Of a DNA stretch of 56,973 nucleotides, positions 6,755 through 53,106 are shown piece after piece. The stretch lies in contig JAURQH010000029.1 of the NCBI GenBank assembly GCA_030836185.1, forward strand, positions 1 to 56,973, in the 5' to 3' direction. Both the position numbers and the translations under genes were made by a program. Below the pieces are notes generated by a model that saw nothing but the letters and a program-made list of their open reading frames with translations, searched no databases and was not told where the DNA came from. Each line of letters opens with the position of its first letter. Within the stretch, counting starts at the first letter, position 1. Source of the DNA: Planctomycetota bacterium (lineage in GTDB: Bacteria; Planctomycetota; Planctomycetia; Planctomycetales; Planctomycetaceae).

Positions 6755-8572
6755 ATGAATGACGCCACTCCAGGATATTTCGGACGTTACTTGCTGGTCA
6801 ATCTTTCGACTGGTCAGTCGGAATCAAAGCCACTGTCCGAATCCGTTTTGAGGAATTATATTGGTGGTGTTGGGTTGGGGACGTGGATTCTCCGCGCAGA
6901 GACAATCGGACAACATGTGGACCCATTGGCGCCGGAGGCTCCCTTGGTATTTACCTTTAGTCCGTTGGTGGGAAGCCCACTGACCACCTCTGCCAAGTTT
7001 GCCGTGGTCGCGAAATCACCACTCACACAGCGCATCAATGACTCTCTCGCGTCTTCACATTTTGCGATTGCCGGAAAAAAAACGGGACACGACGCGATTG
7101 TCATTGTGGGGCAATCAGAAAGTCCGAAAGTCCTACTGATCACAACTGACGGAATCGCTTTACACGACGCTGATTCTTATTGGGGAATGAATATTCCTTC
7201 CGCTGAAGATTCTCTCAAAGAGAGCATCGGAGCACAGTACCGTTATGCCGTGATTGGCCCCGCGGGTGAAAATCTCGTCCGCTACGCGACCATCTCTCAT
7301 GATGGACGACACGCGGGGCGGGGCGGGCTCGGTGCCGTCATGGGTTCCAAATTTCTCAAAGCAATCGGCGTTGCGGGTGACGAGCGCATCCAGTTCGCGC
7401 ATCCCAAAGAACTTGTTGCCCTTAGCAAGTCGGTCTCCCAAAAATCATTCGGTCCCGCGACAGAGAAGTATCGCGAACTCGGGACGGCAGGCAATTTGTT
7501 AGTTTTCAATCGACTGGGGACGTTACCCACTCGCAATTTTCAGGAAGGTGAGTTTGAGCAGGCAGTCGATCTCGCTCCCGAAACCTTGACGCTCAGTCGT
7601 GACAAAGCCCGGAAATCGTGCGCGGCATGTACCATCGGTTGCGAGCATCTGTATGCTCTTGAAAAAGGGGAAAAACCAGTCCGGTTGGAATACGAAAACC
7701 TCTTTGCTCTTGGTCCGATGTGCGGAGTGGGAGATGCCGAAGAAGTCCTTAAAGCCTCACAACTGTGCGATGAGTTGGGAATCGATACCATCTCGGCGGG
7801 AGGCACCATTGCGTTTGCGATGGAGTGTGCAGAGCGTGGACTGATTGATTGGAAGGGGTTCGAGTTCGGTCGAGGGGACACACTTTTATCTGCCTTGGAA
7901 AAAATCGGTCATCGTCGGGATGAGGGTGATTTGTTGGCAGAAGGATCTCGAATATTAGCAGAACAAATTGGGCAGGGAAGCATCGCGTTTGCACCGCAAG
8001 TGAAAGGGCTGGAACTCCCCGGATATGAACCGCGTGCTTTGCAATCCATGGCACTCGGTTTTGCCGTCGGATCTCGTGGAGCCGATCACAATCGTTCGGG
8101 AGCTTATCAAGCCGATTTCTCGGACTCCGTGGACCGCATGAACATCACCGAAGCCGATGTGTCGGCAGCCATTCAAACCGAAGACGAGGCTGCGATCATC
8201 GATTCTCTGATTCTTTGCAAGTTTCTCCGCGGTGTGTTCGAAGACAAGTATGCCGAGATGGCAGAGATGTTGTCGCTGGTGACCGGTTGGAATGTCGATG
8301 GTGAAGAGTTACAGCAGTCAGCCAAAAATATTGTCGAATTAAAAAAACGCTACAACATTGAGCAAGGCTGGACCCCTGCTGAAGATACTCTCCCCGAGCG
8401 ATTTCTTTCCAGTTCGCTGCAAACCGGTGGCAGTAAGGGTGCGACTTTACCGCGAGAACGACTGGATCGGTTGATTCGTGCTTATAATCTTGGTCGCGGT
8501 TGGAGCGAAGAAGGATATCTTTCCTCCGACGTCTGCATGGATCAAAACGGTGTCGATCAAAACAACGTATAG
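6755..8572 (+). CDS. aor: Aldehyde ferredoxin oxidoreductase family (tungsten enzyme)
   Basis: The 605-residue protein matches the AOR family over its full length. The N-terminal domain starts YFGRYLLVNLSTG and has RGGLGAVMGSK (about 189-199) near the pterin site. [4Fe-4S] ligands are present as Cys289-x2-Cys292-x3-Cys296 (CAACTIGC), with a distal Cys488 (LILCKF). These enzymes oxidise aldehydes, or reduce carboxylates, using a W- or Mo-bis-pyranopterin and ferredoxin. The subfamily and substrate cannot be told from sequence alone. It is the third gene of a tight operon with a MoaD-like carrier and a BshB1-like deacetylase. The 3' end overlaps the convergent DUF5989 gene by 16 bp. An AOR is unexpected in an otherwise aerobic-looking gene set. 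Confidence 0.88.
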   Translation: MNDATPGYFGRYLLVNLSTGQSESKPLSESVLRNYIGGVGLGTWILRAETIGQHVDPLAPEAPLVFTFSPLVGSPLTTSAKFAVVAKSPLTQRINDSLASSHFAIAGKKTGHDAIVIVGQSESPKVLLITTDGIALHDADSYWGMNIPSAEDSLKESIGAQYRYAVIGPAGENLVRYATISHDGRHAGRGGLGAVMGSKFLKAIGVAGDERIQFAHPKELVALSKSVSQKSFGPATEKYRELGTAGNLLVFNRLGTLPTRNFQEGEFEQAVDLAPETLTLSRDKARKSCAACTIGCEHLYALEKGEKPVRLEYENLFALGPMCGVGDAEEVLKASQLCDELGIDTISAGGTIAFAMECAERGLIDWKGFEFGRGDTLLSALEKIGHRRDEGDLLAEGSRILAEQIGQGSIAFAPQVKGLELPGYEPRALQSMALGFAVGSRGADHNRSGAYQADFSDSVDRMNITEADVSAAIQTEDEAAIIDSLILCKFLRGVFEDKYAEMAEMLSLVTGWNVDGEELQQSAKNIVELKKRYNIEQGWTPAEDTLPERFLSSSLQTGGSKGATLPRERLDRLIRAYNLGRGWSEEGYLSSDVCMDQNGVDQNNV

Positions 8573-8769
8573 ATGAACGGTGCAGCCCCCGTGGTTGTCA
8601 GGAATGCCAATACTCCCACCATTCCCAGCACCAAAATGATGGGAAGCATCCACCAGATTTTATTTTCTTTGATGAACATCAAAAATTCAGTCGCGAGTCC
8701 CAGTTGCTTATCCTGGCTCAGTTCCTCGAAACTCTTTTCGCTATTCGTTTCATCTTGTTGTTCGGGCAT
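8557..8769 (-). CDS. DUF5989 family small membrane protein (SxtK-like)
   Basis: The 70-residue protein has a polar N-terminus, a basic segment (FIKENKIWWMLP), one transmembrane helix (IILVLGMVGVLAFLT) and the typical ending APFIYTLF. This pattern is that of DUF5989, a small protein found downstream of SxtJ and NodU/CmcH-type carbamoyltransferases. Its role is unknown; association suggests a membrane accessory of the carbamoylation system. It is the last gene of the minus-strand cassette and ends inside the 3' end of the AOR gene. Confidence 0.85.
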   Translation of the reverse strand: MPEQQDETNSEKSFEELSQDKQLGLATEFLMFIKENKIWWMLPIILVLGMVGVLAFLTTTGAAPFIYTLF

Positions 8770-8830
8770 GGCGATTCTGGCCTGATCAAATTATTGGGAA
8801 TGTCTCTCGGAAGCGACTGACAATCTTGCT

Positions 8831-9238
8831 CTAGTATTGTCGAAAATAGCGTTCTTTACGAGAGGGAATTTCTTTCGGCTGCCAGTAACTGGTTTGGCTT
8901 CGGTTGATTGACAGTTGTAAGCGGTCACGTCCCATCATGCGAAAGACGAGCCCAATTGGCAGGAAAACCAATAGAAAGACAAGCAACATCAGGATCTCAC
9001 CAACGACCAACCCAATTGGCATCAGGATAAGTGAGAGCCCCAGAAAAACTGGTTTGAGAACGCTTGGGACGGCCATTCCCAGAAGGGCGAACAAGGCACC
9101 AATTCCCAAACAGATACTGATGACAAATGTTGTGGCCCCCCACAGCCATGCCAGAAAAGGAAGCATGATCAGAGAAAACCAGCCGAACTGTTTTAGTTGA
9201 CGGTTTTCGGGATTCCAGTTGAGTTGAACGAGTGCCAT
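8831..9238 (-). CDS. SxtJ family membrane protein
   Basis: The 135-residue protein starts with a short soluble stretch (LNWNPENRQLKQFGW). About four hydrophobic helices follow, the last running through LMLLVFLLVFLPIGLVFRMMG, and then a basic C-terminal tail (DRLQLSINRSQTSYWQPKE). This layout and tail are typical of the SxtJ family, named from the saxitoxin cluster, where it accompanies the carbamoyltransferase SxtI. Function is not established. It lies 38 bp downstream of the carbamoyltransferase and 61 bp upstream of the DUF5989 gene. Confidence 0.85.
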   Translation of the reverse strand: MALVQLNWNPENRQLKQFGWFSLIMLPFLAWLWGATTFVISICLGIGALFALLGMAVPSVLKPVFLGLSLILMPIGLVVGEILMLLVFLLVFLPIGLVFRMMGRDRLQLSINRSQTSYWQPKEIPSRKERYFRQY

Positions 9239-18675: not shown

Positions 18676-19089
18676 ATGCCGTTAAAATCACTCCCTGTCG
18701 AAGAACCTACGCTCAACCTGACGCCGATGGTTGATATCGTCTTTTTGTTGATCATCTTCTTTATGGTCGGGACGCAGTTTGCAGAGATGGAGCGTTCCAT
18801 CGATGTGCAATTGCCGACCGTCTCCAGTGTCACTCCTTTGACGGGAGTCCCCGATGCGAAAGTCGTCGATATTCATGCCGATGGCAAAATTGAATACGAA
18901 GGAGAAGAGCAGTCTTTAGAAACCTTGCAGGAGACGTTGAAGACTGCACAAGAAAACTATTCGGGGCAAGCGGTTGTGTTGCGAGGTGATCAGCGATGTG
19001 CGTATCAACAGATCATGAATGTGATCGCGGTCTGCAAACGGGCCAAGATTGCTTCAATTTCACTGGCCAACAAACCGGAACAAGAATAA
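18676..19089 (+). CDS. exbD: ExbD/TolR family proton-channel subunit
   Basis: The 137-residue protein has a short cytosolic start, one membrane helix with the essential Asp (LTPMVDIVFLLIIFFMVG, Asp20) and a periplasmic domain (GTQFAEMERSIDVQLP ... VVLRGDQRCAYQQIMNVIAVCKRA). ExbD/TolR works with a five-subunit ExbB/TolQ channel to couple the proton gradient to a TonB/TolA-type partner. No exbB/tolQ is adjacent, so the channel is encoded elsewhere. The next gene, 13 bp on, encodes a protein with a TonB-like anchor and is the likely partner. Confidence 0.93.
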   Translation: MPLKSLPVEEPTLNLTPMVDIVFLLIIFFMVGTQFAEMERSIDVQLPTVSSVTPLTGVPDAKVVDIHADGKIEYEGEEQSLETLQETLKTAQENYSGQAVVLRGDQRCAYQQIMNVIAVCKRAKIASISLANKPEQE

Positions 19090-19102
19090 CAGTTTCATCA
19101 CT

Positions 19103-21343
19103 ATGAGTCTCAGTCTCGATACCGGATTAATGATCGTCGTTGGGCTGCTGTCACTGACAGCGGTTGCGGCGGTGGTGTTGCTGGTCACGATGATGCTGGG
19201 CCGCAAAGCGGTCGCTCATGCGACGGGTCTTTCCTTCATCGTCTCTGTCTTGGCGCATCTTGGTTTTGTTTGTGCCTGGTTTGCGTGGTATCTCTACGTT
19301 GAGTTGAATCCGTCAGCGAGCGCCGTTGCCGCGGCGGAGCTTCCCCAACAAGAGGAAGTTGTCGAAATTCGGGATGTATTCGATGCGGCGGATGATCGTG
19401 TCACAGCGGAATCTGCTGGCGAGAGCGCGTTGTCCGAAGTGACTGAAAACACGATGGTTCCCGAACTCGAACGATTCGTTCCCGATGTCGAAGTCGAAAC
19501 ATTTCCTCCTGTTGATCCACAACGTGATGTGGTGACCGCGGAAATGTCACCTCCTATTGATATTCCCGATGTTCGTAGCGAACCTGATTTGCCGGTCTCG
19601 GTTCCCGTGCCTGTCAAAGCGGGAGCGACTGGACCCATGACACAGGCTCAGATCCCGCTGGAAGTTGAAGCGCCTGTTCGACAAGCCCGGCCAGAAGTCA
19701 AAATTCCCGATACACCGTTGGAGCGAACGGTCACTCCGACCGTCGCGCAGCAGGACTCCGCGTTGGAGCGGTCTCAAAAAACGGGAGCCGTGAATCGAAT
19801 CGACATTGATTCCAAACCGCTGCTCTCAGCCCCCAATTTGGTGGAAGATCCTGAAGCAATGTTGGAGAAAGCGGAAAATGATCTGACAATCAGCCAACTT
19901 GCCGGACCAACTCCCACGATTATTGACGATTCCAACTACGGAACCGAAGCCAACGCAGATTCTGACGACGGCAAGATCAGCGATTCCCTCGAAGAGAATA
20001 TCACACGCACCAAATTGGCCGAGCCAATTGGTATTGAAGGAGGATCGATGCAGCGGGACCGTCCCAATTTCGCCCCGTCGATTCCCTTCCCTGATGTTGA
20101 TGGGCTCATGGTGACGCCCACCGTTCCCGATCTTGGGTTACCGACAGTCGATACCAACGCCCCTAATTTGGTGAAACCCAATTTTGATTTCCCATTGGAA
20201 CGGTCTGTCGAAACAGTTCCTGAGACTTACCGATTGCGTTCCATCGAACGTCGGGCCGATATTGCCCGTAAGTTTGGCGGAACGGAAGAAACCGAACGTG
20301 CGGTCGAGAATTCATTAGCGTGGCTGGCCTCTCATCAAAGTGCCGCCGGGTATTGGGATGCAGATCGATATGGGAGTGGTCGTGGACCGGAAACCGATGT
20401 GGCCGATTTGAATCTGACCGAAGAACGAAAAAAAACACGCCGCGAGTCGGGCATTCAAGCCGATAGTGGTGTGACCGCATTATCATTATTGGCGTTTCTT
20501 GCAGCAGGATACACCAATGAAGAAGGCCAGTATGCCGACAATGTTGATCGAGCGATTCGCTGGATGATCAAACAACAACGTGAAGATGGATATCTGGGAG
20601 GCAACGCCAGTTATTTTGCGGCGAATTACTGTCATGGTATGGCAACATACGCGATGGCGGAAGCATTGGGAATGCAAAGCAATCCTGCGGCTGCCACCGA
20701 ATTGAAGGCAGCCGTTGAGGATGCCGTTAGCTATTCGCTGTTAATGCAAAATACGACGGACGGCGGTTGGCGTTATCGTGCGCAATCGGCTGAAGGGGAT
20801 ATGAGTATTTTCGGTTGGCAATTGATGGCCTTGAAATCTGCCGATATCGCCGGAATCACCATTCCTGAGACCGCCAAGAATCGGATGATTGGTTTTTTGC
20901 GAGATCGGTCGTTGGGTGAAGGAAAAGGATTAGCGGCCTACCGACCGGGTGAACCGGCAACGCATGCGATGACTGCCGAAGCACTCTTCTGCAAACAAAT
21001 TCTCGGCATCCGACGCGGTAACCCCCAATCGACCGAAGCCGTCGAGTTTCTGCTTCGTAAACCACCAAAAATTTCAGACTGGAATCTCTATTACTGGTAC
21101 TACGGAACTTTGGCCATGTACCAGTATGGGGGCGACGAATGGGACCGCTGGAATCTCTCAATGCGAGACACCTTGGTGTCCACTCAAAAACTCAAAGGGG
21201 ATAACGCAGGAAGTTGGGATCCGGTCGGTCCGTGGGGACCGTATGGAGGGCGAGTTTATTCGACCGCACTGGCCACTTTATGCCTGGAAGTCTATTATCG
21301 CTTCTTGCCATTGTACGAACACGGCGGTCGCTTCGACGAGTGA
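19103..21343 (+). CDS. TonB-anchored protein with squalene-cyclase-like alpha/alpha repeats
   Basis: From ATG 19103 the protein has 746 residues. Two membrane helices come first (about 8-32 and 42-66). The second contains Ser48-x3-His52 (FIVSVLAHLGFVCAW), the S-x3-H signature seen in TonB and TolA. A Pro/Glu/Asp-rich region of about 300 residues follows, probably spanning the periplasm. The last 370 residues are prenyltransferase/squalene-oxidase-type repeats (ENSLAWLASHQSAAGYW, DRAIRWMIKQQREDGYLG, LLMQNTTDGGWRYR). No DxDD cyclase motif is seen, so it is unlikely to cyclise hopene precursors; a binding or structural role is more probable. The longer frame from 19049 overlaps exbD and is not preferred. 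Confidence 0.8.
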   Translation: MSLSLDTGLMIVVGLLSLTAVAAVVLLVTMMLGRKAVAHATGLSFIVSVLAHLGFVCAWFAWYLYVELNPSASAVAAAELPQQEEVVEIRDVFDAADDRVTAESAGESALSEVTENTMVPELERFVPDVEVETFPPVDPQRDVVTAEMSPPIDIPDVRSEPDLPVSVPVPVKAGATGPMTQAQIPLEVEAPVRQARPEVKIPDTPLERTVTPTVAQQDSALERSQKTGAVNRIDIDSKPLLSAPNLVEDPEAMLEKAENDLTISQLAGPTPTIIDDSNYGTEANADSDDGKISDSLEENITRTKLAEPIGIEGGSMQRDRPNFAPSIPFPDVDGLMVTPTVPDLGLPTVDTNAPNLVKPNFDFPLERSVETVPETYRLRSIERRADIARKFGGTEETERAVENSLAWLASHQSAAGYWDADRYGSGRGPETDVADLNLTEERKKTRRESGIQADSGVTALSLLAFLAAGYTNEEGQYADNVDRAIRWMIKQQREDGYLGGNASYFAANYCHGMATYAMAEALGMQSNPAAATELKAAVEDAVSYSLLMQNTTDGGWRYRAQSAEGDMSIFGWQLMALKSADIAGITIPETAKNRMIGFLRDRSLGEGKGLAAYRPGEPATHAMTAEALFCKQILGIRRGNPQSTEAVEFLLRKPPKISDWNLYYWYYGTLAMYQYGGDEWDRWNLSMRDTLVSTQKLKGDNAGSWDPVGPWGPYGGRVYSTALATLCLEVYYRFLPLYEHGGRFDE

Positions 21344-21348
21344 CAGTT

Positions 21349-21867
21349 TTATTCTTGGTCGTTCTGTTTTCTCTCACGCTCGCGAACTTCTCGTTCGCGC
21401 GTCGCTGCATCACGTCTTTCTTCGGGAGGACGATGCGGTCCTCGTTCTTCACGCAGTTCATTCACTTCGCGGCGTAACGTCCGAACTTCATTCCGCAAAT
21501 CACCAACAAGCTCGAAGAGTTCACCCAATTCACCGCGAGGCTCGTCACCTTCTTTTTCGCCATGTTCGTGGTGTTCGAGAACTTCAGAGATTTCTTCCAC
21601 TTCATGTTCAAGCCGTTCACGCACCTCACCGATTTCCTCCAACTCCCGCTCGGCTTCCTCCATTTCACGTCCGAGATTGTGAAGGTGTTTTTCCAGCTCC
21701 TCTTCCCGTTGACCGAGTTTCTCGTGTTCTCGTTCCAAGTTCTCACGATGTGCGTGCATTTCATCGGGGCTTGGTTCCCGCTCGGCAATGGCCGAGGTTC
21801 CCCACCACAACAGAGGGATCGACAGAAGAGATAGACAAATGGTGCATCGCATTAATGTTCTTCGCAT
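21349..21867 (-). CDS. Secreted coiled-coil protein, unknown function
   Basis: From ATG 21867 (MRRTLMRCTICLSLLSIPLL) the product has 172 residues: a signal peptide to about residue 28, then an extremely charged Glu/Arg/His-rich coiled coil (repeats such as REEELEKHLHNLGREMEEAE) and a basic Arg/Glu tail. AAAAAAGG about 7 bases before the ATG supports this start over the upstream ones. It converges on the preceding gene with 5 bp between stops. The low-complexity composition makes homology calls unreliable; a periplasmic spacer or scaffold is a guess. Confidence 0.65.
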   Translation of the reverse strand: MRRTLMRCTICLSLLSIPLLWWGTSAIAEREPSPDEMHAHRENLEREHEKLGQREEELEKHLHNLGREMEEAERELEEIGEVRERLEHEVEEISEVLEHHEHGEKEGDEPRGELGELFELVGDLRNEVRTLRREVNELREERGPHRPPEERRDAATREREVRERERKQNDQE

Positions 21868-21980
21868 GACATACCTTTTTTGGCAAGATCGTGTGGTGGA
21901 ATCGACATCTGGGACTCGCGTCCGTCCTCCATTTAGCATACCCTGAAATGGATCGTACGTCGAACTTTTTCGAGTCTGCC

Positions 21981-22904
21981 ATGCCACTCAATCGACTCTC
22001 CGAATGGGTCGCCATTCAACGAAACCCAAGCTCTGGTAGTGGGGCAGGGCGTGAAGAGTTAGTGCGGCTTGTTCTCAGATTGCAAAATTTTGGTTATCAG
22101 GTCCGATCATTCAAAGATCGCGACAAACTGTTGCAGGCATTGAACAATCCCGAGAAGCGATCTCGACTGAAATGTCTCGTCGCGGCTGGTGGAGACGGAA
22201 CGGTTAACGATGTGCTCAATCGATACCCCAGTGTGCCGATCTCTTTGTTCCCGATGGGAACAGAAAATCTGCTCGCTAAATATCTGCAAATCACCGATTC
22301 GGGGGAACGGCTAGCCGAGATCATTCACGAGGGCAGGACGGAGAAATTTGACCTGTGTCAGGTGAATGGACGTAAGTTCCTGTTAATGGCCAGTTTTGGT
22401 ATCGATGCCGAGGTTGTTCATCGCACTAGCCAAGCTCGGAAGGGAAACATCAGTAAACTCAATTACGTCCAACCTTTTTGGGATTCCGTTCGTAATTACG
22501 AGTACCCGGAAATACGCATTTTCGTTGATGATGCGGTGGAGCCGGTGGTCGGACGATTCGGCATCATTAGCAATATTCCGGCGTACGCCTTACAGTTGCC
22601 ATTCGCAACAGCAGCGAGCCCGTTTGATGGCAGGCTCGATCTGCGATTATTCGAGAAAGGGTCACTCTGGTCGACGATGGAATATTTGTATTATGTCACG
22701 AATCGTTGGCACGAAGACCGGGACGATGTCACCTGTCTGAGTGGAAGTCGATTTCGTCTCGAAAGTGATGTGCCGGTTCCGATTCAGGTGGACGGGGATC
22801 CGGCAGGATTTACACCCGCATTGATCGAATTGAGTTCATCGGATGTCTCATTATTGGTACCCAAATATTTTTTATCTGATCAGTCGGAAAGGATTCCTCG
22901 ATGA
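21981..22904 (+). CDS. Diacylglycerol/lipid kinase family protein (YegS-like)
   Basis: From ATG 21981 the protein has 307 residues. The catalytic nucleotide loop GGDGTVND (70-77) is intact, preceded by [12 protein letters not shown] and followed by [13 protein letters not shown], matching the DagK/YegS family that phosphorylates lipids such as diacylglycerol or phosphatidylglycerol. The later part ([18 protein letters not shown]) also fits. ATG 21948 is an alternative start. Its last four bases (ATGA) overlap the kdsA start, indicating translational coupling with an LPS gene, so its lipid substrate may relate to the envelope. Confidence 0.88.
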
Positions 22905-23746
22905 CAGTTACTGATGTTCCCGTGGGGCAGTGGACTTGTGGAGTCCAGCAACCGTTATTGTTCATCTCCGGGCCGTGCGTTATGGAAGATGAAGAATTGG
23001 TCAAGCGAACCTCGGGGGAACTCGCCGAGATTGCCGAACGGTTGGGTGTCCAACTTGTCTACAAATCCAGTTTTGATAAAGCCAATCGAACCAGCATTCA
23101 CTCGTATCGTGGCCCTGGTCTTGAACAAGGGTTAGATTGGCTGGCAGCCGTGAAAGAACGTACCGGCTTGCCCGTCACCACCGACGTTCACGAGCCGGAG
23201 CAAGCCCGCAGAGCGGCGGAAGTGTGCGATATCATTCAGATCCCCGCATTCCTGGCTCGCCAAACCGATCTGTTACAAGCCGCCGCGGAAGGAACCGCCA
23301 AGCATGGAGGTGTCGTGAACATCAAAAAACCGCAGTTTGTTGCTCCTGAGGATACCGAACATGCGGTGCAAAAATGTCGAGAGTCGGGGAACGACCGCGT
23401 CTTATTGACGGAACGGGGAACAACCTTTGGATACGGCAGGCTAGTCAACGATTTTCGCTGTGTCTCGATCATGCATGACATTGGAACGCCGGTCATTTAC
23501 GATGCAACACACAGTGTTCAAACCCCCGGTGGAAAAACAACCGGCGGGCAACGTGAGATGGTGTGGCCCCTCTCACGAGCGGCAGTGGCGTGTGGCTGCG
23601 ATGGTGTCTTTTTTGAAACACACCCCGATCCCGACAACGCCAAGAGTGATGGCCCCAACATGGTTCCTCTGTCACAAGCGGAACAATTGATGACACAATT
23701 GACTCAAGTGAGAGATCTCATTCTTTCTCTTCCGACCAACTCATAA
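22901..23746 (+). CDS. kdsA: 3-deoxy-8-phosphooctulonate (KDO-8-P) synthase, metal-dependent class
   Basis: The 281-residue protein condenses PEP with arabinose 5-phosphate to give KDO 8-phosphate for LPS. It has [11 protein letters not shown] at the N-terminus, then [18 protein letters not shown] and KKPQF. Cys26, His204 ([11 protein letters not shown]), Glu239 (FFETHPDP) and Asp250 match the four metal ligands of the class II (Aquifex-type) enzyme; class I enzymes have Asn at the first position. The gene overlaps the lipid kinase gene by 4 bp. Confidence 0.95.
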
Positions 23747-23776
23747 ATTATCTACGAATAATTCAGGTTCAACAGC

Positions 23777-25483
23777 ATGACTTTTTCCGTTCGCCTTGGT
23801 TTGTTCTGGTCTCTTTCCGCCTGCTTGTTGGTCGGTTGTCCCTCACCTCCACCTTCGAGTGGAACGGGAGGAAGTTCAGAGACATCGAGTACTGCTGAGG
23901 AACAGCGCTGTGCTGACAGCCTGAAGAATGCTTTTAATTCACTCGATCCGCATCGTCTGGAAATTGACGCTGATCTCGAAGCGACAGCCAATGAGCTTAA
24001 CAACTGGCTTTCATCATGCGGTCAATCGGAATGGGACGATGAGAAGGCCTTAAAGAGATTAAACAAAATACTTAGCGACGAGCAGATGGCCACGATTCAG
24101 GCCGAGCGATTTGGAAGTCGCGATGTCGCCCATGTGCGAACTTCGATTTTGTTGCGTCAAATCGCAGAACAAGCAGCAGAAGACGCAGATTCAGATCTCG
24201 AACGCGCTGTCAGCCTGTTTCGGTACGTGACTCGTACGATAATCCAGCAGCCCGACAACCAAAACATCCCGCTCACTTTGTATCAAGTCTTTCTCTTCGG
24301 TCGAGCCACAGCCGAGCACCAGGCGTGGGCCTTCACTGAACTACTGCATCAGTTACGGATTGATGCGGTCGTACTAACGCCGCAACAACAAGGGGACAAG
24401 AAATGGATCGTCGCGGTTTGCCTCGAAGAGGGGAATTATCTCTTCGATTTTTCTTTGTTGACGCCTGTGCCGTCCAAATCTTCGACATCTTGGCGGATTG
24501 ACACTCCTGCCACTCTCCAGGAAGTCATCAAGAGTCCCAAACTTCTCACTGTTCTTCAGGAACTGGGAAGTCAAGTGCCTTCAGCGACCGAGTTAACAAC
24601 TCCTCATGTACTGGTCCCCTATAGTGCAACATTCTGGTCGATGCGAATGCGTTCTCTCAACCAGACACAGTCTGGGTTGGCCGCGGTGTTGGCCGACCCT
24701 TTACTCGATGGTGAGTATGGAATGGGGGCTCTCGCTCGAATTGCCAAGAGCTCCGAAAATTGGGTGCTATCCAATTTGACACTCTGGGAGTTCTCTGAAG
24801 AACAGGAAACCAAATATTGGTCGATTCGCAAAAACTCCTCGCAAGAGCAGGCGTTAATTGCTCGCATGATGCCATTTCTCGCTCCGTTGGAAGTTCAGGT
24901 GAATAAGGAAAAGCAGGAGGTGAATATTACGAAAGAAGGAAAGAAACAGTGGGCAACACGACTCACCCAGCTTCAGGGAGAGTTTCCGAAAGCCATCAGA
25001 AACTACGGCGGTTTACGAGTGGGTAGCAAGAACACGCGAAACTTAATATTGGCTCAAGATATCGATCCGTCGATTCAAGCAATTTTACCAGTGATCATAC
25101 AAAGAGAAGATGCTGCCGCCGAAGATGCCCATTTTTGGGTGGCGGCTTCGCAATACGACCTCGGAGAATGGACCGATGCTCGTAGTACTTATCAGGATTA
25201 CCTGAATCGGTATGACGCAGCTCGATGGACCGATTCCGTTCATCTTATACTGGCCCAGATCGCAATGTCTGAAGAGGATTTTGAAACGGCACGAAACCAC
25301 TTGAGCAGCATCTTGAAAACTTCCTCGCTCAAAAAGGCGGCAATGTTTCTGGAGTCGCAGATTTCGGAATCATCCACAAGCGAGCCAACTAAAAAAGAAG
25401 AGTCCAAAGCACCGAAGGAAGAGACTGAGATAAAATCGGAATCGAAAGAAGAATCAAAAACAGCGAAGCCCGGCGATTCTTAA
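23777..25483 (+). CDS. Lipoprotein with degenerate transglutaminase-like domain and TPR-like repeats
   Basis: The 568-residue protein has a lipoprotein signal (SLSACLLVGC, acylated Cys21) followed by a Ser/Gly/Pro linker. A transglutaminase-like region (about 155-240) includes ERAVSLFRYVTRTI and FGRATAEHQAWAFTELLHQL. The Cys expected in the GxCxxxA motif is absent from residues 175-184, so the thiol chemistry is probably lost. TPR-like helices lie near 465-540 (AAASQYDLGEWTDARSTYQDYL), followed by a low-complexity Lys/Glu tail. A periplasmic scaffold role is likely. It starts 30 bp after kdsA; the two may share a transcript. Confidence 0.75.
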   Translation: MTFSVRLGLFWSLSACLLVGCPSPPPSSGTGGSSETSSTAEEQRCADSLKNAFNSLDPHRLEIDADLEATANELNNWLSSCGQSEWDDEKALKRLNKILSDEQMATIQAERFGSRDVAHVRTSILLRQIAEQAAEDADSDLERAVSLFRYVTRTIIQQPDNQNIPLTLYQVFLFGRATAEHQAWAFTELLHQLRIDAVVLTPQQQGDKKWIVAVCLEEGNYLFDFSLLTPVPSKSSTSWRIDTPATLQEVIKSPKLLTVLQELGSQVPSATELTTPHVLVPYSATFWSMRMRSLNQTQSGLAAVLADPLLDGEYGMGALARIAKSSENWVLSNLTLWEFSEEQETKYWSIRKNSSQEQALIARMMPFLAPLEVQVNKEKQEVNITKEGKKQWATRLTQLQGEFPKAIRNYGGLRVGSKNTRNLILAQDIDPSIQAILPVIIQREDAAAEDAHFWVAASQYDLGEWTDARSTYQDYLNRYDAARWTDSVHLILAQIAMSEEDFETARNHLSSILKTSSLKKAAMFLESQISESSTSEPTKKEESKAPKEETEIKSESKEESKTAKPGDS

Positions 25484-25577
25484 TTAAGCGACAGAAATTC
25501 TAAACACGATCACTTGCAACAGTCTTTGAAGACCGACACACTTCGTGGATCGATTCTTCATTTTTCGAGAGACTGAT

Positions 25578-26570
25578 ATGTCTGTGATTCTTCGTCGATA
25601 TTGGTTTTTGCTCGGCCTCTTGGTCATGATCCCAATGGGGCTGGGGGTTGGTTACACCATCACCGGGGGCTTTGTCCCGTTTTGGTTGAGAACTGTTAAT
25701 CCACGCTGGATCACAGCAGTCGTCCTGTTCTTGATGACATTTACGCTCGACTCTCGTCAGTTTTTGGTATCACTCAAAAAGCCCAGTCCTGTCTTGTTTG
25801 CAGGACTTGTCAACCTGGGCATGCTTCCGGTCATTGCCTGTGGATTGGCACCGTTACAACTGACGCTCGACTTTCAAGTCGGGTTGATGATCGCGGCCAC
25901 AGTTCCTTGTACGTTAGCAGCCGCCTCGGTCTGGACGCGTAAGGCGGGTGGCAACGACGCTGTTTCTCTTCTGGTCACACTTACGACCAATTCTCTCTGC
26001 GTGATCGTCACACCCTTCTGGTTGGCACAATCCACGGCGCAGGCTGTCGAATTTAATCTTTGGTACATGACTCTTCGATTGGTGCAAGCGGTTTTGATTC
26101 CCACAATTCTCGGCCAACTGTTGCGACTCATCCCCGCAAATGCTCGATTTGCAACCGAACGAAAAATCCCTATCGGAGTTCTTGCACAAGGGATGATTCT
26201 GATATTAGTGTTCACGGCATCGATGAATGCGGGTTTACAACTCGCCAGTGGAGAAGCAGAAATCGGAGCGGCTGCATTATTGTTGGTCTGGAGTTGTTGT
26301 TTGGGTCTCCACCTGACCGGAGCAGCCGTCGGATGGTGGGGAAGTGGCCTTTTAAAGCTTCCACTTGCCGACCGAAAAGCGGTTTTGTTTGCTGCGAGTC
26401 AGAAAACATTACCAATAGGCGTGTTATTGGCAACCGACCCAAGCATGTTTGGTAATGCAGGAGTTCCTTTTGCGATATTCCCGATGCTGATGTATCACAC
26501 CACACAACTTGTAGTCGACACCTTGATTGCACATCGCCTATCGTTGGTGACCGAAGAGAGCACCAATTGA
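25578..26570 (+). CDS. Bile acid:sodium symporter family-like transporter
   Basis: From ATG 25578 (MSVILRRYWFLLGLL) the protein has 330 residues and about nine or ten hydrophobic helices. It shows SBF/BASS-type features: MTFTLDSRQFLVSLKKP in the second helix region, MIAATVPCTLAAASVWTRKAGGNDA around the helix-break motif, and ASQKTLPIGVLLA in the later half. The nearest type appears to be the SBF-like (PF13593-type) branch. Substrates in bacteria are organic anions, but the actual one here is unknown. The ATG at 25578 is chosen because the upstream frame adds a polar leader. Confidence 0.78.
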   Translation: MSVILRRYWFLLGLLVMIPMGLGVGYTITGGFVPFWLRTVNPRWITAVVLFLMTFTLDSRQFLVSLKKPSPVLFAGLVNLGMLPVIACGLAPLQLTLDFQVGLMIAATVPCTLAAASVWTRKAGGNDAVSLLVTLTTNSLCVIVTPFWLAQSTAQAVEFNLWYMTLRLVQAVLIPTILGQLLRLIPANARFATERKIPIGVLAQGMILILVFTASMNAGLQLASGEAEIGAAALLLVWSCCLGLHLTGAAVGWWGSGLLKLPLADRKAVLFAASQKTLPIGVLLATDPSMFGNAGVPFAIFPMLMYHTTQLVVDTLIAHRLSLVTEESTN

Positions 26571-26596
26571 GACGAGCCTATCGCTCGAACATTCCA

Positions 26597-26632
26597 TAAA
26601 AAACGCCACAAGAATATTTCATCTTGTGGCGT
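26597..26632 (-). terminator. Rho-independent terminator for the vWA operon
   Basis: ACGCCACAAGA (26603-26613) and TCTTGTGGCGT (26622-26632) form a perfect 11-bp stem with an 8-base loop. Read on the minus strand, the stem is followed by TTTTT, so it terminates the minus-strand vWA genes. It may also slow plus-strand transcription from the transporter gene, whose stop lies 32 bp upstream of the stem. Confidence 0.85.
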
Positions 26633-26656
26633 CCGCTTATTGAAGAGTGTTCGTTA

Positions 26657-28576
26657 TCAGAACTTGGGAACGACGATTGTCTTATTGTCGTATTGAGGAT
26701 TTCGGTAGACATCGACGAATGTCATCCCGAATCCTAAGCGAAGTTCGTACTGAGCCCGTCCAGCCCAAGGCGTATTCGTATGAGTTGTCACCACTTCCCG
26801 TAGAAGATTTTGGGCTTCTTTTCCTTGAAGCTCCAATTCGGCAAGATACTCAGCACGTGTCATTTTCAGTCCAAACTCTTTATTTAAGCGAGCATACTGC
26901 TCCTCATCAGGAATAATCATTTTGGGAACACGTCGGGCATCCCAACGGTTGGAGGGAGCGTCCTTGTTCTTTCTTTTTGGCTCCGGGTTGGTGGCAACAT
27001 GCTGATCAATGGCCAACAAAAATTGGAACAAACGAATTTTGAAGGTGACCAGTTGGGCATAAGCCAAGTCGTAATTGGCACGCCAACGCATCGAAGCTTC
27101 TGTGTCGCGAAGCGGTTTGATTTTCTCCAACATGGCCATCGCCTGGTTAACCAGCCCCATTGACTTAATGGCCTTGGGAACTTGTTTGGCGGCTTCCGAC
27201 TGGAACGGGCCGACTTCCATCGGGTACCAATTTTCTTTGATGTTCAACTGACCGTCGAGGTAAGGGTTGAGCCGTTCGATGACGTCAAAAACGATTCGCC
27301 GGAACTCTTCGCGATCTCGATTTTGTATATAGGAGCGACGATCACCGAGAAATGGCTGATATTCTTTCATATCAAGAAACTCGTACTTCCGATCCTCGAT
27401 CTGGCGAGGATTCACCAAGTTCTCTTCTTCACCGGGAAGAATAAAGAAGATGCCGCCTGATTCGCGTGCCATGCGCACTTGTGCGTAAGGTCCGAATCCG
27501 GCTGATTGAGTATCCCAGCGGCTGTGCAAGCCATCCCATTGCAAACATTCCACCATAGGAGTCTCTGGGCCACGTCGAACTTGTAACCAGTGTGTTGTCT
27601 TAAACTCTGGATGGACCCATCGGACTCGGGCATACGGATATCCAAACATCGATTCACGGCCCATGAAGTAAGCCGGGACGCGACCCTGTTTCAGTTTCGA
27701 GACGGTCGCTTCCAGAAGCTGAGCGTTATCCCCATCGTCCCCCGATTCATCGGAAACGACAATCAAAACCAGTCGGCGCCCTTGTCGCCGAGCTTGCCCA
27801 ATAAATTCGTCGACCGTGGCATTAATCGACTGACACATATTTTCCTTACCTGATCGATCGATGGGAATTTTTCCGATGGAGGCTTTGACTTCTTCAATGT
27901 CGGAAGTTGGCTTGGTGTGTTGGTGGATCGTTTCACCGAAGGAAAGGATGGAGGTCAGAATGTGTTCATCTGAGGCCCGTTTCTTAAGTTCTTCATCCTT
28001 CTTAGTCAGAATTCCGAGTTCTTCGTACACTTTGTAGAAGTTTTCGGCGATTTCTTTTTGATCGTCTTTCATACTGCCCGATTCATCGAACAGCCAAACC
28101 GCCATGATCTTTTCTTTACGCATCATACGGATCAACTCAGCCGTGATTCGTCCCATGGCGGCACCATAGCCTTCAACGGCCGCACCAGTTTCTCCGGTTA
28201 CTTCGCCTTCACCGAAGTCTTTACCGATCGTCTCATCGCTGGGGAGTGTCACTTCAGTCAGCGAGACCTCAATTTGTGGATCTTCGAGTGTCTCGGCTTG
28301 CTCGACTTTGCTGGTCGTCACAACCGGTCCTGCCGAAGAGCCAATTTCACCGGTCACGGCTCCACCGGGTTGCGTGTTGAATGTTTCGGAAACCTGCGTG
28401 TCCATTTCGAGTTCTTTCGTGAACTCTTCCTGGGTTCGCTCAGGCTCGAAGACCGTTTCCAAATCCAACTGAGTGGCGGGGTCAATCACGGTCAACTTGA
28501 TGAGGAAGAGGCCCGCGAGAACAACTACGTGCGCACCTAAAGAAACACCCAATGCGGGCAAATCGCTGGTTTTCAT
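26657..28576 (-). CDS. vWA-domain protein with TonB/TolA-like membrane anchor (A)
   Basis: From ATG 28576 (MKTSDLPALGVSLGAH) the protein has 639 residues. A single N-terminal helix carries Ser12-x3-His16-x6-Leu23, like the SHLS motif of TonB/TolA. An acidic linker of about 120 residues leads to a von Willebrand A domain. Its MIDAS motif is Asp164-x-Ser166-x-Ser168 (WLFDESGSM), with the later metal-site strand VVSDESGDDG. The C-terminal 300 residues are mostly helical and unassigned. GGAG about 10 bases upstream supports the start. It is a paralogue of the gene 149 bp upstream and is followed by a terminator. Likely location: inner membrane with the vWA domain in the periplasm. Confidence 0.8.
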   Translation of the reverse strand: MKTSDLPALGVSLGAHVVVLAGLFLIKLTVIDPATQLDLETVFEPERTQEEFTKELEMDTQVSETFNTQPGGAVTGEIGSSAGPVVTTSKVEQAETLEDPQIEVSLTEVTLPSDETIGKDFGEGEVTGETGAAVEGYGAAMGRITAELIRMMRKEKIMAVWLFDESGSMKDDQKEIAENFYKVYEELGILTKKDEELKKRASDEHILTSILSFGETIHQHTKPTSDIEEVKASIGKIPIDRSGKENMCQSINATVDEFIGQARRQGRRLVLIVVSDESGDDGDNAQLLEATVSKLKQGRVPAYFMGRESMFGYPYARVRWVHPEFKTTHWLQVRRGPETPMVECLQWDGLHSRWDTQSAGFGPYAQVRMARESGGIFFILPGEEENLVNPRQIEDRKYEFLDMKEYQPFLGDRRSYIQNRDREEFRRIVFDVIERLNPYLDGQLNIKENWYPMEVGPFQSEAAKQVPKAIKSMGLVNQAMAMLEKIKPLRDTEASMRWRANYDLAYAQLVTFKIRLFQFLLAIDQHVATNPEPKRKNKDAPSNRWDARRVPKMIIPDEEQYARLNKEFGLKMTRAEYLAELELQGKEAQNLLREVVTTHTNTPWAGRAQYELRLGFGMTFVDVYRNPQYDNKTIVVPKF

Positions 28577-28725
28577 CGAACATAATCTCCATGAGATTGC
28601 CGAACGGCTCATCTCGGGGGAAGGGAAATAATTTCACAAATTGCGGAAACAAAATTGGATAAATAAGTCAGGCCAGAGAGTAAATACGACCCGCAGTCCT
28701 CACCTGTTTCTTCGTTCGTCGTTCT

Positions 28726-30741
28726 TTACAGTTTTGGACGCTTCTTGGGTTGTTCAGGACGTTCACGATTGCGGCGTCGCTCAATTTCATCAGCGAGCAA
28801 CAATCGGGCTTCGTCATTATCGCCATTCCGCGTCATCACATTCCCATTCTTGGAAATCGCCGCTTCTTCCCACCCCCAACCCATTGGCTGAGACAACTCT
28901 GCTTTCGCAAGATCGGCCCATGGGGTTCCGGGGTGTTCATCCATGACTCGTGTCAGATACGATTCGGCTTCTTTGGCCATCTTTCTGACAGAGGGAGTCG
29001 CATTTTTCAAATCGGTCGAAGGACGCAAGTACCAGAAGTTGGAACGTGGGTCTTCGAAAGGTCTTAAGTTTGTTCTCATTTCGGCCAGCATTTGGCCGTA
29101 TCCGTACGCACGAACTTTTAGTGCCATTGCACGGCCCATTGCCAAGTCGAACGCAGCACGCCAACGTGGCTCGACAATTTTGTCGCGTTCTTTGCTGCCA
29201 GCATCCAGCAAGGCAACCAAACTACTGATTTTGTAGTCCAACACGGAGGTTGGTTTTTGAGCCTCAAAGATTTCATTTCGTAGCGTGTTGTCGTCTTTCG
29301 CGTCGAAGGAAAGCGTCGGCATACTAAGTCGTTCGATGCGCAAAGCGCGAGTCGCATCGATCAATGAAGCGATCGCTTTGTTATCGCGAATGGTTTGATC
29401 CAATTCTCGAATTGGGCTGTAGTCGGGCTGGTAGGCTCGCATGATTTCATAGTCATACTTCACTGCCCGACCATTCTCCTGAGCCACTAAAAACAGGCCA
29501 CCCGTTTCCGCACACAAGCGATTGAGGGGATAAGGACCGAAGCTGGAAGACATATTGTTCAAGCCGCGTCGGTTGGTCAGTCCCCAGAAATCGATATCGA
29601 GCAGTTCGGGATAGAAAGATTCAGGGCCAGCATCAACTGGCAGATAGTCGGTGAATGACTTGCCATCTTCTTCCCAAGTATATTGGACGTACGCTTTTTC
29701 TTTACCGAAGATTGCTGCGTTGCCAACACAGTGAACCTTGATGCCCACTCGTGCCAATTGAGAGATGACGTTTTCCATTTTGTCGAAGTCGTCACCACGC
29801 TCATCAGTCACGATGATGTACATCACGTTTCGGCGTTCTTTGGTGCGAAAATTCCCCCATTTACGGGTGATGTCTTCTAGTGCTGTGAAGACCATTTCCT
29901 TGCCGCTTTCATCGGCTGGAATTTCGCGAATCTTATCAGTCAAAGGTGTGACATCACTGGTCGGTTCTTTCGCGAGAAAGACGGTCTTTTCACCGAAAGT
30001 TGCTGCCGCGGTGAGCAATCGGTCACTCTCGCCAATTCCTTTGAGTCCAACTTGTTCGTAGACATTGTGAAAGCGGTCGGCGATGGCATCGCGACGTTCT
30101 TTCACCGAGCCGGACGCATCGAATAACCAGACGACTAATGTTTCTTTGTCTTGGACGGCGTTCGTAATTTCAAACGCGAGACGATCCATGGCGCCTTCGG
30201 TTCCACCGGTATGCTCAGTGGTTCCCTGTGTTTCCATAACCGCGGTCATTTGATCCCGAGAAGGTTGTGTCATCAAATCCTGAATTTGAATGTCTGGATT
30301 GATCTGCGAATCTTCGATACGACGTTCGATTTCTTGGGGTTCCGATTCTCCGTTCTTCATGGCTGCCTGAAGAGAAGGACTGCGTTGATTCATGTCAGAG
30401 TTATTGCCCAAGTTGTCTTGAACAGTCGAGTCGAACTTGTAGGTTTCGATTTCCAATTCTTCGACGGGGGTGCTGACAATGTCTTCGGTCAGTACCATTT
30501 GGGTCACACGCGTGATGCTTCCCAAGGCCAGAAGGATCGCGAGATGCGCAACGAGGCTTACGGCCCAAGCGGGCGCTTCTTGCAAACTCGCCATGAGGCC
30601 ATCTTTCGAGACCTCTTCAAGCATCTCTTGAGTTTCAGCGACCACGGAATCGGATTCCGAAACACTTTCGAATTCTACAAAGTGTTCGTTGGGAGCTTCA
30701 TCAAAGACCGGTGTTCGATCGGGCAATATAGTCGAACTCAC
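28726..30741 (-). CDS. vWA-domain protein with TonB/TolA-like membrane anchor (B)
   Basis: This 671-residue paralogue of the downstream gene has a longer acidic cytosolic start of about 55 residues, then a membrane helix with Ser62-x3-His66-x6-Leu73 (AVSLVAHLAILLALGS). A polar linker and a vWA domain follow, with MIDAS Asp208-x-Ser210-x-Ser212 (WLFDASGSV) and VTDERGDDF. Both paralogues continue with a segment resembling SFGPYPLNRLCAETGGLF. The tail is basic. The two genes form one minus-strand unit. A metal-dependent protein-binding role driven by membrane energy is inferred from the anchor; no enzyme motif is seen. Confidence 0.8.
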   Translation of the reverse strand: MSSTILPDRTPVFDEAPNEHFVEFESVSESDSVVAETQEMLEEVSKDGLMASLQEAPAWAVSLVAHLAILLALGSITRVTQMVLTEDIVSTPVEELEIETYKFDSTVQDNLGNNSDMNQRSPSLQAAMKNGESEPQEIERRIEDSQINPDIQIQDLMTQPSRDQMTAVMETQGTTEHTGGTEGAMDRLAFEITNAVQDKETLVVWLFDASGSVKERRDAIADRFHNVYEQVGLKGIGESDRLLTAAATFGEKTVFLAKEPTSDVTPLTDKIREIPADESGKEMVFTALEDITRKWGNFRTKERRNVMYIIVTDERGDDFDKMENVISQLARVGIKVHCVGNAAIFGKEKAYVQYTWEEDGKSFTDYLPVDAGPESFYPELLDIDFWGLTNRRGLNNMSSSFGPYPLNRLCAETGGLFLVAQENGRAVKYDYEIMRAYQPDYSPIRELDQTIRDNKAIASLIDATRALRIERLSMPTLSFDAKDDNTLRNEIFEAQKPTSVLDYKISSLVALLDAGSKERDKIVEPRWRAAFDLAMGRAMALKVRAYGYGQMLAEMRTNLRPFEDPRSNFWYLRPSTDLKNATPSVRKMAKEAESYLTRVMDEHPGTPWADLAKAELSQPMGWGWEEAAISKNGNVMTRNGDNDEARLLLADEIERRRNRERPEQPKKRPKL

Positions 30742-49354: not shown

Positions 49355-52300
49355 TCAATCCGGGTCGTAGCCGAGATTCGGTGACAACCAGCGTTCTGTG
49401 TCTTGCAAGCTCATGCCGGTTCGCTTGGCATAGCTCTCCACCTGATCTCGCGTGATCTTATCGACCGAGAAATAGCGGCTTTCCGGGTGGGCAAAGTAGA
49501 GCCCACTGACGGATGCCATTGGGAACATCGCCATGTGTTCGGTCAATGTGATACCGGTGGATTTCTCTGCGTCCAGTAACTCCCAGAGGAGTTGCTTAGG
49601 TGTGTGGTCGGGACAAGCTGGATAGCCAAAGGCGGGGCGAATGCCACGATACTTCTCGGCGATCAAATCGTCTTGCGCGAGATCTTCTTGTTGGCCGAAA
49701 CCCCAATCGAGACGTGCTTGATGATGCAGGTATTCGGCGAACGCTTCCGCAAAACGGTCGGCTAAGGCTTTGACCATGATGGCAGAATAGTCGTCGTGAT
49801 CGGCTTCATATTTCTGGACAATTTCATCGGTCCCGAATCCGGTCGAGACGGCGAATGCTCCCAGATAATCGGTTCGCCCGGAATCAACCGGGGCAATGTA
49901 ATCCGCCAAAGAGCGAAACTCGCTTTGCCCTTTCCGTTCCCATTGCTGGCGTAACATCGGGAAGCGATACAATTCGTCTTGAGTTCCCGGCGTATAAAGA
50001 ACGACATCATCGCCGTCGGAATTTGCGGGAAAGAAACCGTAGACCGCCTTGGCCGTGAGTAACTTTTCATCCACGATTTTCTTCAGCATCGCTTGTGCAT
50101 CGTCGTAGAGCTTCTTGGCTTCTTCGCCGACAAAATCATCTTCGAAAATCTTGGGATACTTCCCTTTCAGCTCCCACGCCATGAAGAATGGCGACCAGTC
50201 GATGTAATCGACCAACTCGCTCAAAGGCAAATCATCAATGACTTTCGTGCCGGTAAAAGCCGGTTCGGGAACATCAACATTGTTCCAATCAGTCGCAAAG
50301 CGACGTTCCAGCGCCTCAGCGTAAGAGACCAGCTTTTTATCTTTTCGATCTGAGAAGGCATCGCGCTCTTTTTGTTGACGTTCCTGCACCTCGGCAATGA
50401 AGGTCTCTTTAGCATCTTTGTCGATGAGCTTCTCGACAATCGGGACACTGGTTGACGCATCGCGAACATGGACAACCGGTTGATTGTACTCGGTCGCAAT
50501 TTTCACCGACGTATGTTTGCTGCTTGTCGTCGCGCCGCCGATGAGCAACGGTTGCGTCATCCCGCGACGTTTCATTTCGCGAGCAACGATCACCATTTCA
50601 TCGAGAGACGGCGTGATCAATCCCGAAAGACCGATGATTTCGGCTCCTTCTTCGACCGCTTTGTCGAGGATCGTGTCGCAAGGCTGCATCACACCCAAGT
50701 CGATGACATCGAAGCTGTTACAGCGCAATACCACGCCGACAATATTTTTGCCGATGTCGTGAACGTCACCTTTCACCGTTGCGATCAGTACCTTACCGCG
50801 GGAGGTGGATTGATCACCCAGCTCTGCCTTTTCGGCTTCCATATAAGGTGTGAGCCAGGCGACCGATTTTTTCATCACGCGAGCACTTTTGACAACCTGC
50901 GGCAGGAACATTTTTCCTTCGCCGAACAGTTGGCCGACAACTCCCATCCCGTCCATGAGCGGGCCTTGGATGACTTCCAAAGGGCGTCCATATTTTTGAC
51001 GTGCTTCTTCGGTATCTTCGTCGATGTGATCGAGGATTCCTTTGAGGATCGCATGAGCGAGTCGCTCTTCCACTGTGCCGTCTCGCCAGGAGACTTTGTT
51101 CGGGTCCTCTTGCGTGTCCTTGGCTTTCACGGTTTCTGCGAAATCGATCAATCGTTCGGTCGCATCTTCACGACGATTGAGGAGCACGTCTTCAATATGG
51201 ACTAACAACTCGGGTTCGATCTCTTCGTAGACTTCGAGTTGACCGGCGTTAACGATGCCCATATCGAGGCCGGCTTGAATCGCGTGATATAAAAACGCCG
51301 CATTCATCGCCTCACGGACAACATTGTTCCCCCGGAATGAGAACGAGACATTGCTGACGCCGCCCGATGTGAGTGCTCCCGGACATTCTGCTTTGATTCG
51401 TTTGACGGCATCGAAGAATTCGACCGCGTAATTGGAATGTTCTTCCATTCCCGTGCCGACGGTGAGGATGTTCGGATCGAAGATGATGTCTTGTGGCGCG
51501 AAATTGGCTTCATCAGTGAGGAGCTTGTACGCACGTTTGCAAATCGAAACTTTCTGATCGGCTTCGACCGCCTGACCTTCTTCATCGAATGCCATCACCA
51601 CAACCGCCGCACCATATTGATGAGCCAAGCGGGCGTGATATAGGAACTGCTCCTCGCCTTCTTTCAGGCTGATGGAGTTAACAATCGGCTTGCCTTGCAC
51701 GCATTTCAGTCCCGCTTCGATCACGTCCCATTTGGAGGAATCAATCATGACGGGAACTGTGGCGATATCGGGTTCGGAGGCAATCAAGTTGAGAAACTTG
51801 GCCATTGCCGCTTCACTGTCGATCATCCCTTCGTCCATATTGACGTCGATGATGTTGGCCCCGTTTTCGACTTGGTCGCAGGCGACCGAGAGGGCTTGTT
51901 CGTATTGTTCCTCTTTGATGAGACGCGCAAATCGACGCGAACCGGTCACGTTGGTTCGCTCACCCACCATGATAAAAGTGGACTCAGGACGAATCGTGAC
52001 GGTTTCCAGACCGCTGTAGCGTGCGAACGAAGTTGGTTTCGATTTTCCGTGCGGCGACATGCCTTCAACGGCTTCACCGATTGCTTTTAAGTGAGCCGGT
52101 GTGCTGCCGCAACAACCGCCGACAAAGTTGAGCCAACCCTGTTCGGCAAAGTCACGCAGATGATCGGCCATTTCGGTCGGCGTCATATCGAACTCACCCA
52201 TTTCGTTGGGGAGCCCTGCATTCGGATAGCAACTGACATAGCGGTCGGTTCGATTGGCGACATCTTCGATGTACGGTCGCATTTTTGTCGGACCGAGGCC

Positions 52301-53053: not shown

Positions 53054-53106
53054 GGAAATCAATCAGTTCTGTCGGTTCAATCTCGGTATCTGGCGTGACC
53101 ACATCC

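Follow-up and report, generated by a model that had tools for sequence, protein, structure and literature searches.

Candidate TonB/TolA-like force transducers with alpha/alpha-toroid and von Willebrand factor A heads in a planctomycete

Three anchored proteins in one contig

We analysed a stretch of 56,973 nucleotides (the window), which is one whole contig (JAURQH010000029.1) of a planctomycete genome of 5.16 Mb (GCA_030836185.1; the source genome). It encodes three proteins anchored by a hydrophobic helix with the Ser-x3-His (S-x3-H) signature of TonB and TolA: a protein resembling squalene cyclases, encoded directly after exbD, and two von Willebrand factor A (vWA) proteins, here called vWA-1 and vWA-2. 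The original prediction held that these belong to a family of machines driven by the proton motive force, with vWA or alpha/alpha-repeat heads in place of the TonB C-terminal domain. We consider it quite likely that all three act as force transducers in the manner of TonB and TolA, fitted with heads of another kind, whose docking, topology, force and ligand we infer from the motif, its conservation, the gene order, the phylogeny of ExbB and the lack of detectable TonB and TolA C-terminal domains in the genome.

The motor subunit gene exbD (P0004, 18676-19089, forward strand) encodes a protein with a transmembrane Asp20 that matches Pfam ExbD at 7.2e-28 (97.7 bits against a cut-off of 25.4). 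The cyclase-like gene (19103-21343, forward strand) has its ATG at 19103, 13 nucleotides past the exbD stop codon, and encodes a force-transducer candidate of 746 residues with a predicted alpha/alpha toroid. An additional hydrophobic helix (approximately 19115-19201) lies ahead of the anchor helix and is followed by a loop bearing Arg and Lys, with the conserved consensus TRWG..K in an alignment of relatives (A2). The anchor helix itself (19220-19300) carries Ser48 (19244-19246) and His52 (19256-19258), numbered from the ATG at 19103; these are residues 49 and 53 in the translation P0001, which starts one codon earlier. A long Pro/Glu-rich linker (19301-20227, approximate limits; about 300 residues) leads to the head (20228-21340, approximate start), in which a loose pattern detects QW-like repeats and which lacks the DxDD motif. 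Pfam SQHop_cyclase_C matches this protein at 1.1e-5, one bit below its cut-off.

Both vWA genes lie on the reverse strand. The vWA-1 protein (P0002, 26657-28576, 639 residues) has its anchor helix at 28484-28558, with Ser12 (28541-28543), His16 (28529-28531) and Leu23, and the helix of vWA-2 (P0003, 28726-30741, 671 residues) lies at 30502-30573, with Ser62 (30556-30558), His66 (30544-30546) and Leu73. In each, a linker of about 120-130 residues precedes a vWA domain with the DxSxS motif of a metal-ion-dependent adhesion site (MIDAS); Pfam VWA matches vWA-1 at 1.9e-7, over its cut-off, and vWA-2 at 2.2e-4 (21.9 against 23.8 bits). The translations thus bear out what had been read at these residues, namely S-x3-H within a hydrophobic helix in all three proteins, Leu seven residues past the His in the vWA pair, and a long polar linker followed by a C-terminal domain. 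No TonB or TolA family appeared among the Pfam matches of the three proteins.

A reading of the three-gene neighbourhood as one operon was rejected, because the vWA genes lie on the opposite strand and their linkage does not extend beyond the genus. The cyclase-like and vWA genes of complete genomes lie 0.18 Mb (G024), 0.22 Mb (G069), 0.29 Mb (G048) and 0.44 Mb (G181) apart.

Conservation and reach of the anchor

In the window and seven further stretches of the source genome, S-x3-H occurred in 6 of 179 predicted transmembrane segments, one of them in an unrelated ten-helix protein, where shuffling within segments predicts 2.4. Across 39 stretches from relatives it occurred in 51 of 558 segments, where shuffling predicts 12.3. 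Outside the families the background was 1.7% (11 of 633 segments), with a family filter that also removed some unrelated proteins. These background rates come from selected genomic stretches. The presence of the motif in the three proteins is not due to chance.

Among aligned rows, with the window row counted, S-x3-H is found in 19 of 19 for vWA-1 and in 19 of 21 for the cyclase-like protein, the two exceptions being L093, with Ala-x3-His, and L092, in which an S-x3-H helix lies further along. For vWA-2, Ser is kept in all 18 rows, and the His position holds His in 11 and Asn in 7 (L101-L105, L109 and L110), the sole change seen there, which spans four genera. Loci L101-L105 hold both genes, and in them vWA-1 keeps His where vWA-2 has Asn; the two proteins may have taken on different tasks. 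Asn reportedly substitutes fully for His20 of TonB, as a 2011 paper by Swayne and Postle is said to state in its title, and the natural change in vWA-2 matches that title.

A larger set, drawn from 80 genome loci of relatives, comprised 74 cyclase-like open reading frames (ORFs) not cut by a contig end. S-x3-H was present in 71 of these and His in 73; 70 were flagged automatically, L210 has the motif below the hydrophobicity filter, and the exceptions are L199 and L215 (Ala-x3-His) and L213 (no helix in the ORF). In a set of more distant relatives, 8 of 13 loci (L031-L043) had the motif flagged. Of 20 further stretches (L121-L140, selected by hand from the match list), 17 had it flagged in one or more of their cyclase-like ORFs. 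Among those unflagged, L033 has the Ala form of L093, and L034 and L037 have no helix within the stretch. The motif, on whose conservation in orthologues the original prediction had staked itself, is therefore kept in all three families. The invariance of S49 and H53 in alignment A2 was not used as evidence, because 48 of its 49 rows are relatives chosen out of 70 ORFs in which an anchor was visible; a further alignment (A1) also had hand-picked rows and left out L092, L093 and L123, among others.

The anchors carry Ser/His or Ser/Asn, and no Asp lies in their hydrophobic core. Lys and Arg, counted per 20 residues on the N-terminal and then the C-terminal side of the helix, number 2.9 and 1.5 in vWA-1, 2.2 and 0.6 in vWA-2 (where the N-terminal side is also acidic), 3.7 and 1.6 in short cyclase-like proteins, and 1.9 and 2.2 in the cyclase-like protein, which instead has the conserved TRWG..K loop between its two helices. 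The charge bias and the loop would each fit, without proving, heads that lie outside the cytoplasm.

To search with the helix alone, we used a profile of 12 anchor strings of 30 residues (one letter wrong in one row), with no TonB included. On the whole source genome it gave seven matches with E <0.04, five of them training rows, including the three window anchors (19223-19300, 28487-28570 and 30502-30585), and two of them new; two matches with E >1 were dropped. All seven proteins carry vWA or alpha/alpha heads. Each of the new ones consists of a helix, a linker and a vWA domain: G000:C26:95878 (624 residues, E 4.1e-5; Pfam 6.8e-4, below the cut-off) and G000:C19:7856 (317 residues, E 0.035; Pfam 7.5e-9, over the cut-off). 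The anchored vWA protein at L234:6571-8442 (G000:C26) has a CxxC zinc-ribbon-like stretch ahead of its helix.

Across 59 genomes of the phylum, 30 had a match to this profile at E <=0.01, with 57 matches listed. The 29 loci that were read outside the source genome comprise 21 cyclase-like, four vWA (recognised by Pfam in L249 and L257, and in L236 and L264 by a sequence motif alone), one TonB, one FHA, one unassigned (L258) and one without a readable anchor (L251). Since anchors of short cyclase-like and of vWA proteins were among the training rows, such finds were expected; the retrieval of a true TonB (L250, TonB_C 1.3e-18) by a TonB-free profile was not.

In the source genome, TonB_C was not found even at E 1, nor was the TolA domain PF06519 at E 1, the latter having been searched for in this genome only. 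The PF06519 model is centred on proteobacteria. Among 61 genomes of the family, TonB_C is present in 12 and missing from 49, and ExbD is present in all 61 with 4 to 14 matches each, so that ExbD without detectable TonB_C is the rule in this family.

Motor genes, heads and a proposed mechanism

The cyclase-like gene directly follows exbD in 19 of 20 relative stretches and in 66 of the 74-ORF set. Four of the other eight have at most 713 bases upstream on their contig, and the remaining four (L157, L159, L161 and L179) have no exbD immediately before the gene even though the contig continues. The ExbD Asp is aligned in 65 of the 66 upstream ExbDs, with one gap. Upstream of exbD, exbB is found in 23 of the 74, preceded in 21 of those 23 by a long tetratricopeptide repeat (TPR) gene, giving the order TPR-exbB-exbD-cyc. 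Contiguous exbB-exbD-cyc rows occur in L090, L091 and L093, and 5 of the 20 more distant stretches likewise have adjoining motor genes (exbB-exbD-cyc in L122, L123, L139 and L140; cyc-exbB-exbD-exbD in L128). In the window's family, exbB has moved away from exbD-cyc.

Two observations adjoin this pattern. In L085, L086 and L087, from one genus, exbB-exbD-exbD lies about 3 kb upstream of exbD-cyc, with mreD-like and penicillin-binding-protein-like genes between them, as judged by eye. A short cyclase-like paralogue with an SVAVH anchor lies at L120:8806-10476 (G000:C12), with no ExbD detected in its 19-kb stretch, and short paralogues similar to it occur in many genomes of the phylum.

The source genome holds an exbB without adjacent exbD (L117, G000:C104:149803-150162). 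In a maximum-likelihood tree of 37 ExbBs, which has several long branches and unsure deeper joins, this lone ExbB groups with 25 operon ExbBs in a clade of 26 rows (support 98/99), as sister to L166 (99/96), and the ExbBs of the other source-genome motors (L114, L115 and L116) fall outside that clade. Given this placement, the lone ExbB together with the window ExbD is probably the motor of the cyclase-like protein. According to the available text of PMC12215075, TolA His22 touches TolQ Ser28, and TolQ Trp32 is the other contact. The position of Ser28 is Ser in 36 of the 37 ExbBs, and TolQ Pro138, Thr145, Thr178 and Pro187 are kept in 37 of 37.

A motor of the source genome with two exbD genes (L115, G000:C7, 4770-10359) lies beside a gene for a 1191-residue FHA/beta-propeller protein; one of its ExbDs (8405-9169) has an N-terminal CxxC zinc-ribbon-like stretch, and its ExbB has Ala in the TolQ Ser28 column with Ser adjoining, in one alignment.

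The head of the cyclase-like protein bears on what this protein does. A profile of alignment A2 matches squalene-hopene cyclases in the PDB at 1.6e-9 summed over repeats, with a best single stretch of 0.023, and there are weak matches to Pfam and NCBIfam cyclase models, all of which would suit a membrane enzyme of lipid or polysaccharide metabolism next to which ExbD lies by chance. We regard such an enzyme as highly improbable, as the NCBIfam match is far below its cut-off (25.4 against 322.7 bits), DxDD is present in 1 of the 49 A2 rows (chosen for a visible anchor), no thioester motif was found in those 49 rows, and the motor genes stand upstream as often as described above. With QW-like repeats present and these motifs so rare, a binding barrel is, from sequence, the better reading of the head. 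The A2 profile also matches TolA in the PDB (7.8e-6); this match was rejected as evidence, being mostly low-complexity linker. It drops to 0.094 without the first 45 residues and to 1.5e-4 with Ser18/His22 replaced, and its alignment sets Ser/His in register with TolA and TonB, which we note without using it.

For the vWA pair, the DxSxS motif, the one part of the MIDAS site that was counted, is kept in 37 of 37 rows (19 of 19 in vWA-1, one with Asn first, and 18 of 18 in vWA-2). The two genes stand in tandem at 12 of 21 loci (L074 and L095-L105, out of L074 and L094-L113), and a cyclase-linked exbD some kb from vWA genes is confined to the window and its near relatives (L074, L141). The gene of a third anchored vWA protein in the same genome (L114:4753-8610, G000:C7; anchor SLILH) comes first in a cluster with a TPR gene, exbB and two copies of exbD, and the vWA matches of this protein are below the Pfam cut-off (9.2e-5). 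The source genome has 7 ExbD and 6 MotA/ExbB matches, with the vWA gene of L114 linked to one set and the window pair unlinked.

It could therefore be that only the cyclase-like protein is motor-driven and that the vWA proteins are plain tethered binders, in which S-x3-H is kept for helix packing, for example of vWA-1 with vWA-2. The lack of neighbouring motor genes in relatives, the tandem arrangement and the Asn in 7 of 18 vWA-2 rows would agree with this. We nevertheless think it unlikely, in view of the Ser and His that vWA-1 keeps in every row, the Ser that vWA-2 keeps in every row, and L114, which, with its sub-threshold vWA match, has the arrangement of published vWA transducers.

Returning to the reading of all three proteins as force transducers, several observations weigh against it. 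S-x3-H was unflagged in the cyclase-like ORFs of L038, L042, L123, L135 and L138. In the cyclase-like protein, the residue at His+7 is Trp, so that the Leu of the SHLS motif is absent, as is its final Ser; this Ser is missing from all three proteins (Tyr, Lys and Thr at His+11). Topology is read from charge counts only. A D-box-like strand after the helix, described in the available text of PMC10907165, is weakly enriched relative to two control windows (cyclase-like 16 of 49 rows against 3 and 3; vWA-1 10 of 19 against 7 and 0; vWA-2 2 of 18 against 3 and 0; short cyclase-like 4 of 17 against 1 and 1). The operon ExbBs of L093, L122, L123, L139 and L140 fall outside the lone-ExbB clade, and the TolQ Trp32 position is Trp in none of the 37 ExbBs. 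In 20 relative stretches, each 14-18 kb long, neither exbB nor exbD was detected near the vWA genes. TonB_C is found in 42 of the 59 genomes of the phylum, yet one of the 29 loci is a TonB, which means that the anchor profile misses most TonBs. Finally, apart from Ser/His, the helix shows no likeness to TonB and TolA: in a position-specific scoring matrix of all anchors, run over 1,211 background proteins that still held the family members L092, L093, L114, L120, L178 and L212, TolA ranked 22nd and TonB 136th with all columns, and 489th and 176th with Ser/His masked, when neither stood above background. Sequence homology of the helix alone to TonB/TolA was rejected on these ranks.

Taken together, the claim of machines driven by the proton motive force is well supported for the cyclase-like protein, by the near-invariant Ser/His, the upstream exbD, the exbB-exbD-cyc rows and the matching lone exbB. 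For the vWA pair, it has conservation and a published proposal (PMC12204202, in the text available) on its side and the missing motor genes in relatives against it. The motor-driven reading is accordingly strong for the former and probable for the latter.

Mechanistically, the anchor helix, the second in the cyclase-like protein, would span from cytoplasm to periplasm, and its Ser/His pair would dock on the first helix of the ExbB/TolQ pentamer. Proton flow through ExbB5-ExbD2 would then move the ExbD dimer, which would pull the linker, while the head would bind a periplasmic or outer-membrane partner and pass the tension on, so that envelope proteins may be moved or pulled. The motor of the cyclase-like protein would most likely be the window ExbD with the lone ExbB, and its partner would most likely have a connection to the long TPR protein whose gene precedes exbB in relatives. 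For the vWA heads, we expect that they probably bind a ligand through a MIDAS-type metal site, and that they would be driven by another ExbB/ExbD set of the genome or a shared one. A different role, with the anchored proteins regulating the ExbBD channel or acting as its stators, bound to the motor without passing force to a distant partner, is compatible with the same anchor and gene order, and no cargo was identified in our analysis; a globular head held on a linker of some 120 to 300 residues would instead suit an arm that spans the periplasm, and we hold this alternative to be distinctly improbable.

More broadly, Planctomycetota may possess a class of envelope machines, powered by protons, whose ExbB-ExbD motors pull alpha/alpha-toroid or vWA heads, replacing TonB in many members of the window's family and perhaps TolA, with a core of TPR-ExbB-ExbD-toroid in several families and unlinked short toroid and vWA transducers that share motors; we see this proposal as evenly poised. 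The envelope of planctomycetes is unusual, these bacteria take up large molecules, and we know of no settled account of how energy reaches their outer membrane. The ExbB-ExbD-toroid row with its near-invariant docking pair is a concrete and testable candidate for this energy supply. It points to the TonB/TolA anchor as a module that can be reused with different heads, and suggests that some proteins of the phylum named after squalene cyclases or prenyltransferase repeats are misnamed.

Elsewhere in the window, 6755-8572 and 49355-53062 encode an aldehyde ferredoxin oxidoreductase and a B12-dependent methionine synthase.

Comparison with known systems

The idea of vWA transducers is already published: in the text available, Williams-Jones et al. 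2025 (PMC12204202) put forward vWA proteins with an SHLS helix as force transducers, in Planctomycetes among others, which are often encoded downstream of TPR, tolQ-like and two tolR-like genes, an arrangement frequent in the PVC group and not obligatory. The window pair shares with these the Ser/His helix, the disordered linker and the vWA head, and differs in that two diverged vWA proteins are encoded in tandem, with no adjoining motor genes and often with Asn for the vWA-2 His; it is a further, motor-unlinked variant. The L114 cluster has the genes of that system, but with the vWA gene first. A second family described there, TPH-vWA, has no SHLS residues and a proton-binding Asp in its helix, unlike the window anchors.

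The main text of PMC12204202 does not mention squalene, cyclase, prenyltransferase or toroid, and the review PMC12905483 does not mention vWA, squalene or prenyl. No published link of a cyclase-like head with ExbD or force transduction was found among the papers listed by a search outside which most subscription papers lie; PMC5006271 contains prenyltransferase, ExbD and planctomycete one time each. Two things are new here: the ExbB-ExbD-toroid gene row, which occurs in several families of the phylum, and the assignment of a probable motor role to the lone ExbB.

Squalene-hopene cyclases (PF13243; PDB 2sqc, 3sqc and 1gsz) have alpha/alpha repeats with QW-like motifs in common with the cyclase-like protein, which differs from them in its head of about 370 residues, the rarity of DxDD, its membrane anchor and linker, and its adjoining motor genes. 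With TonB and TolA and their ExbBD and TolQR motors, the three proteins share the anchor Ser-x3-His, the linker, the C-terminal head and the ExbB contact Ser, to which the cyclase-like protein adds, in relatives, the row exbB-exbD-transducer; unlike TonB and TolA, they have an alpha/alpha barrel or vWA head and an incomplete SHLS, and the cyclase-like protein has an extra N-terminal helix. Finally, the anchored FHA protein L262, found outside the window by the anchor profile, has an FHA domain ahead of its helix and an N-terminus like that of the gliding-motility protein GltG (NCBIfam gliding_GltG 7.6e-13, 47.9 bits where the cut-off is 650), which might connect it with gliding-type motors.

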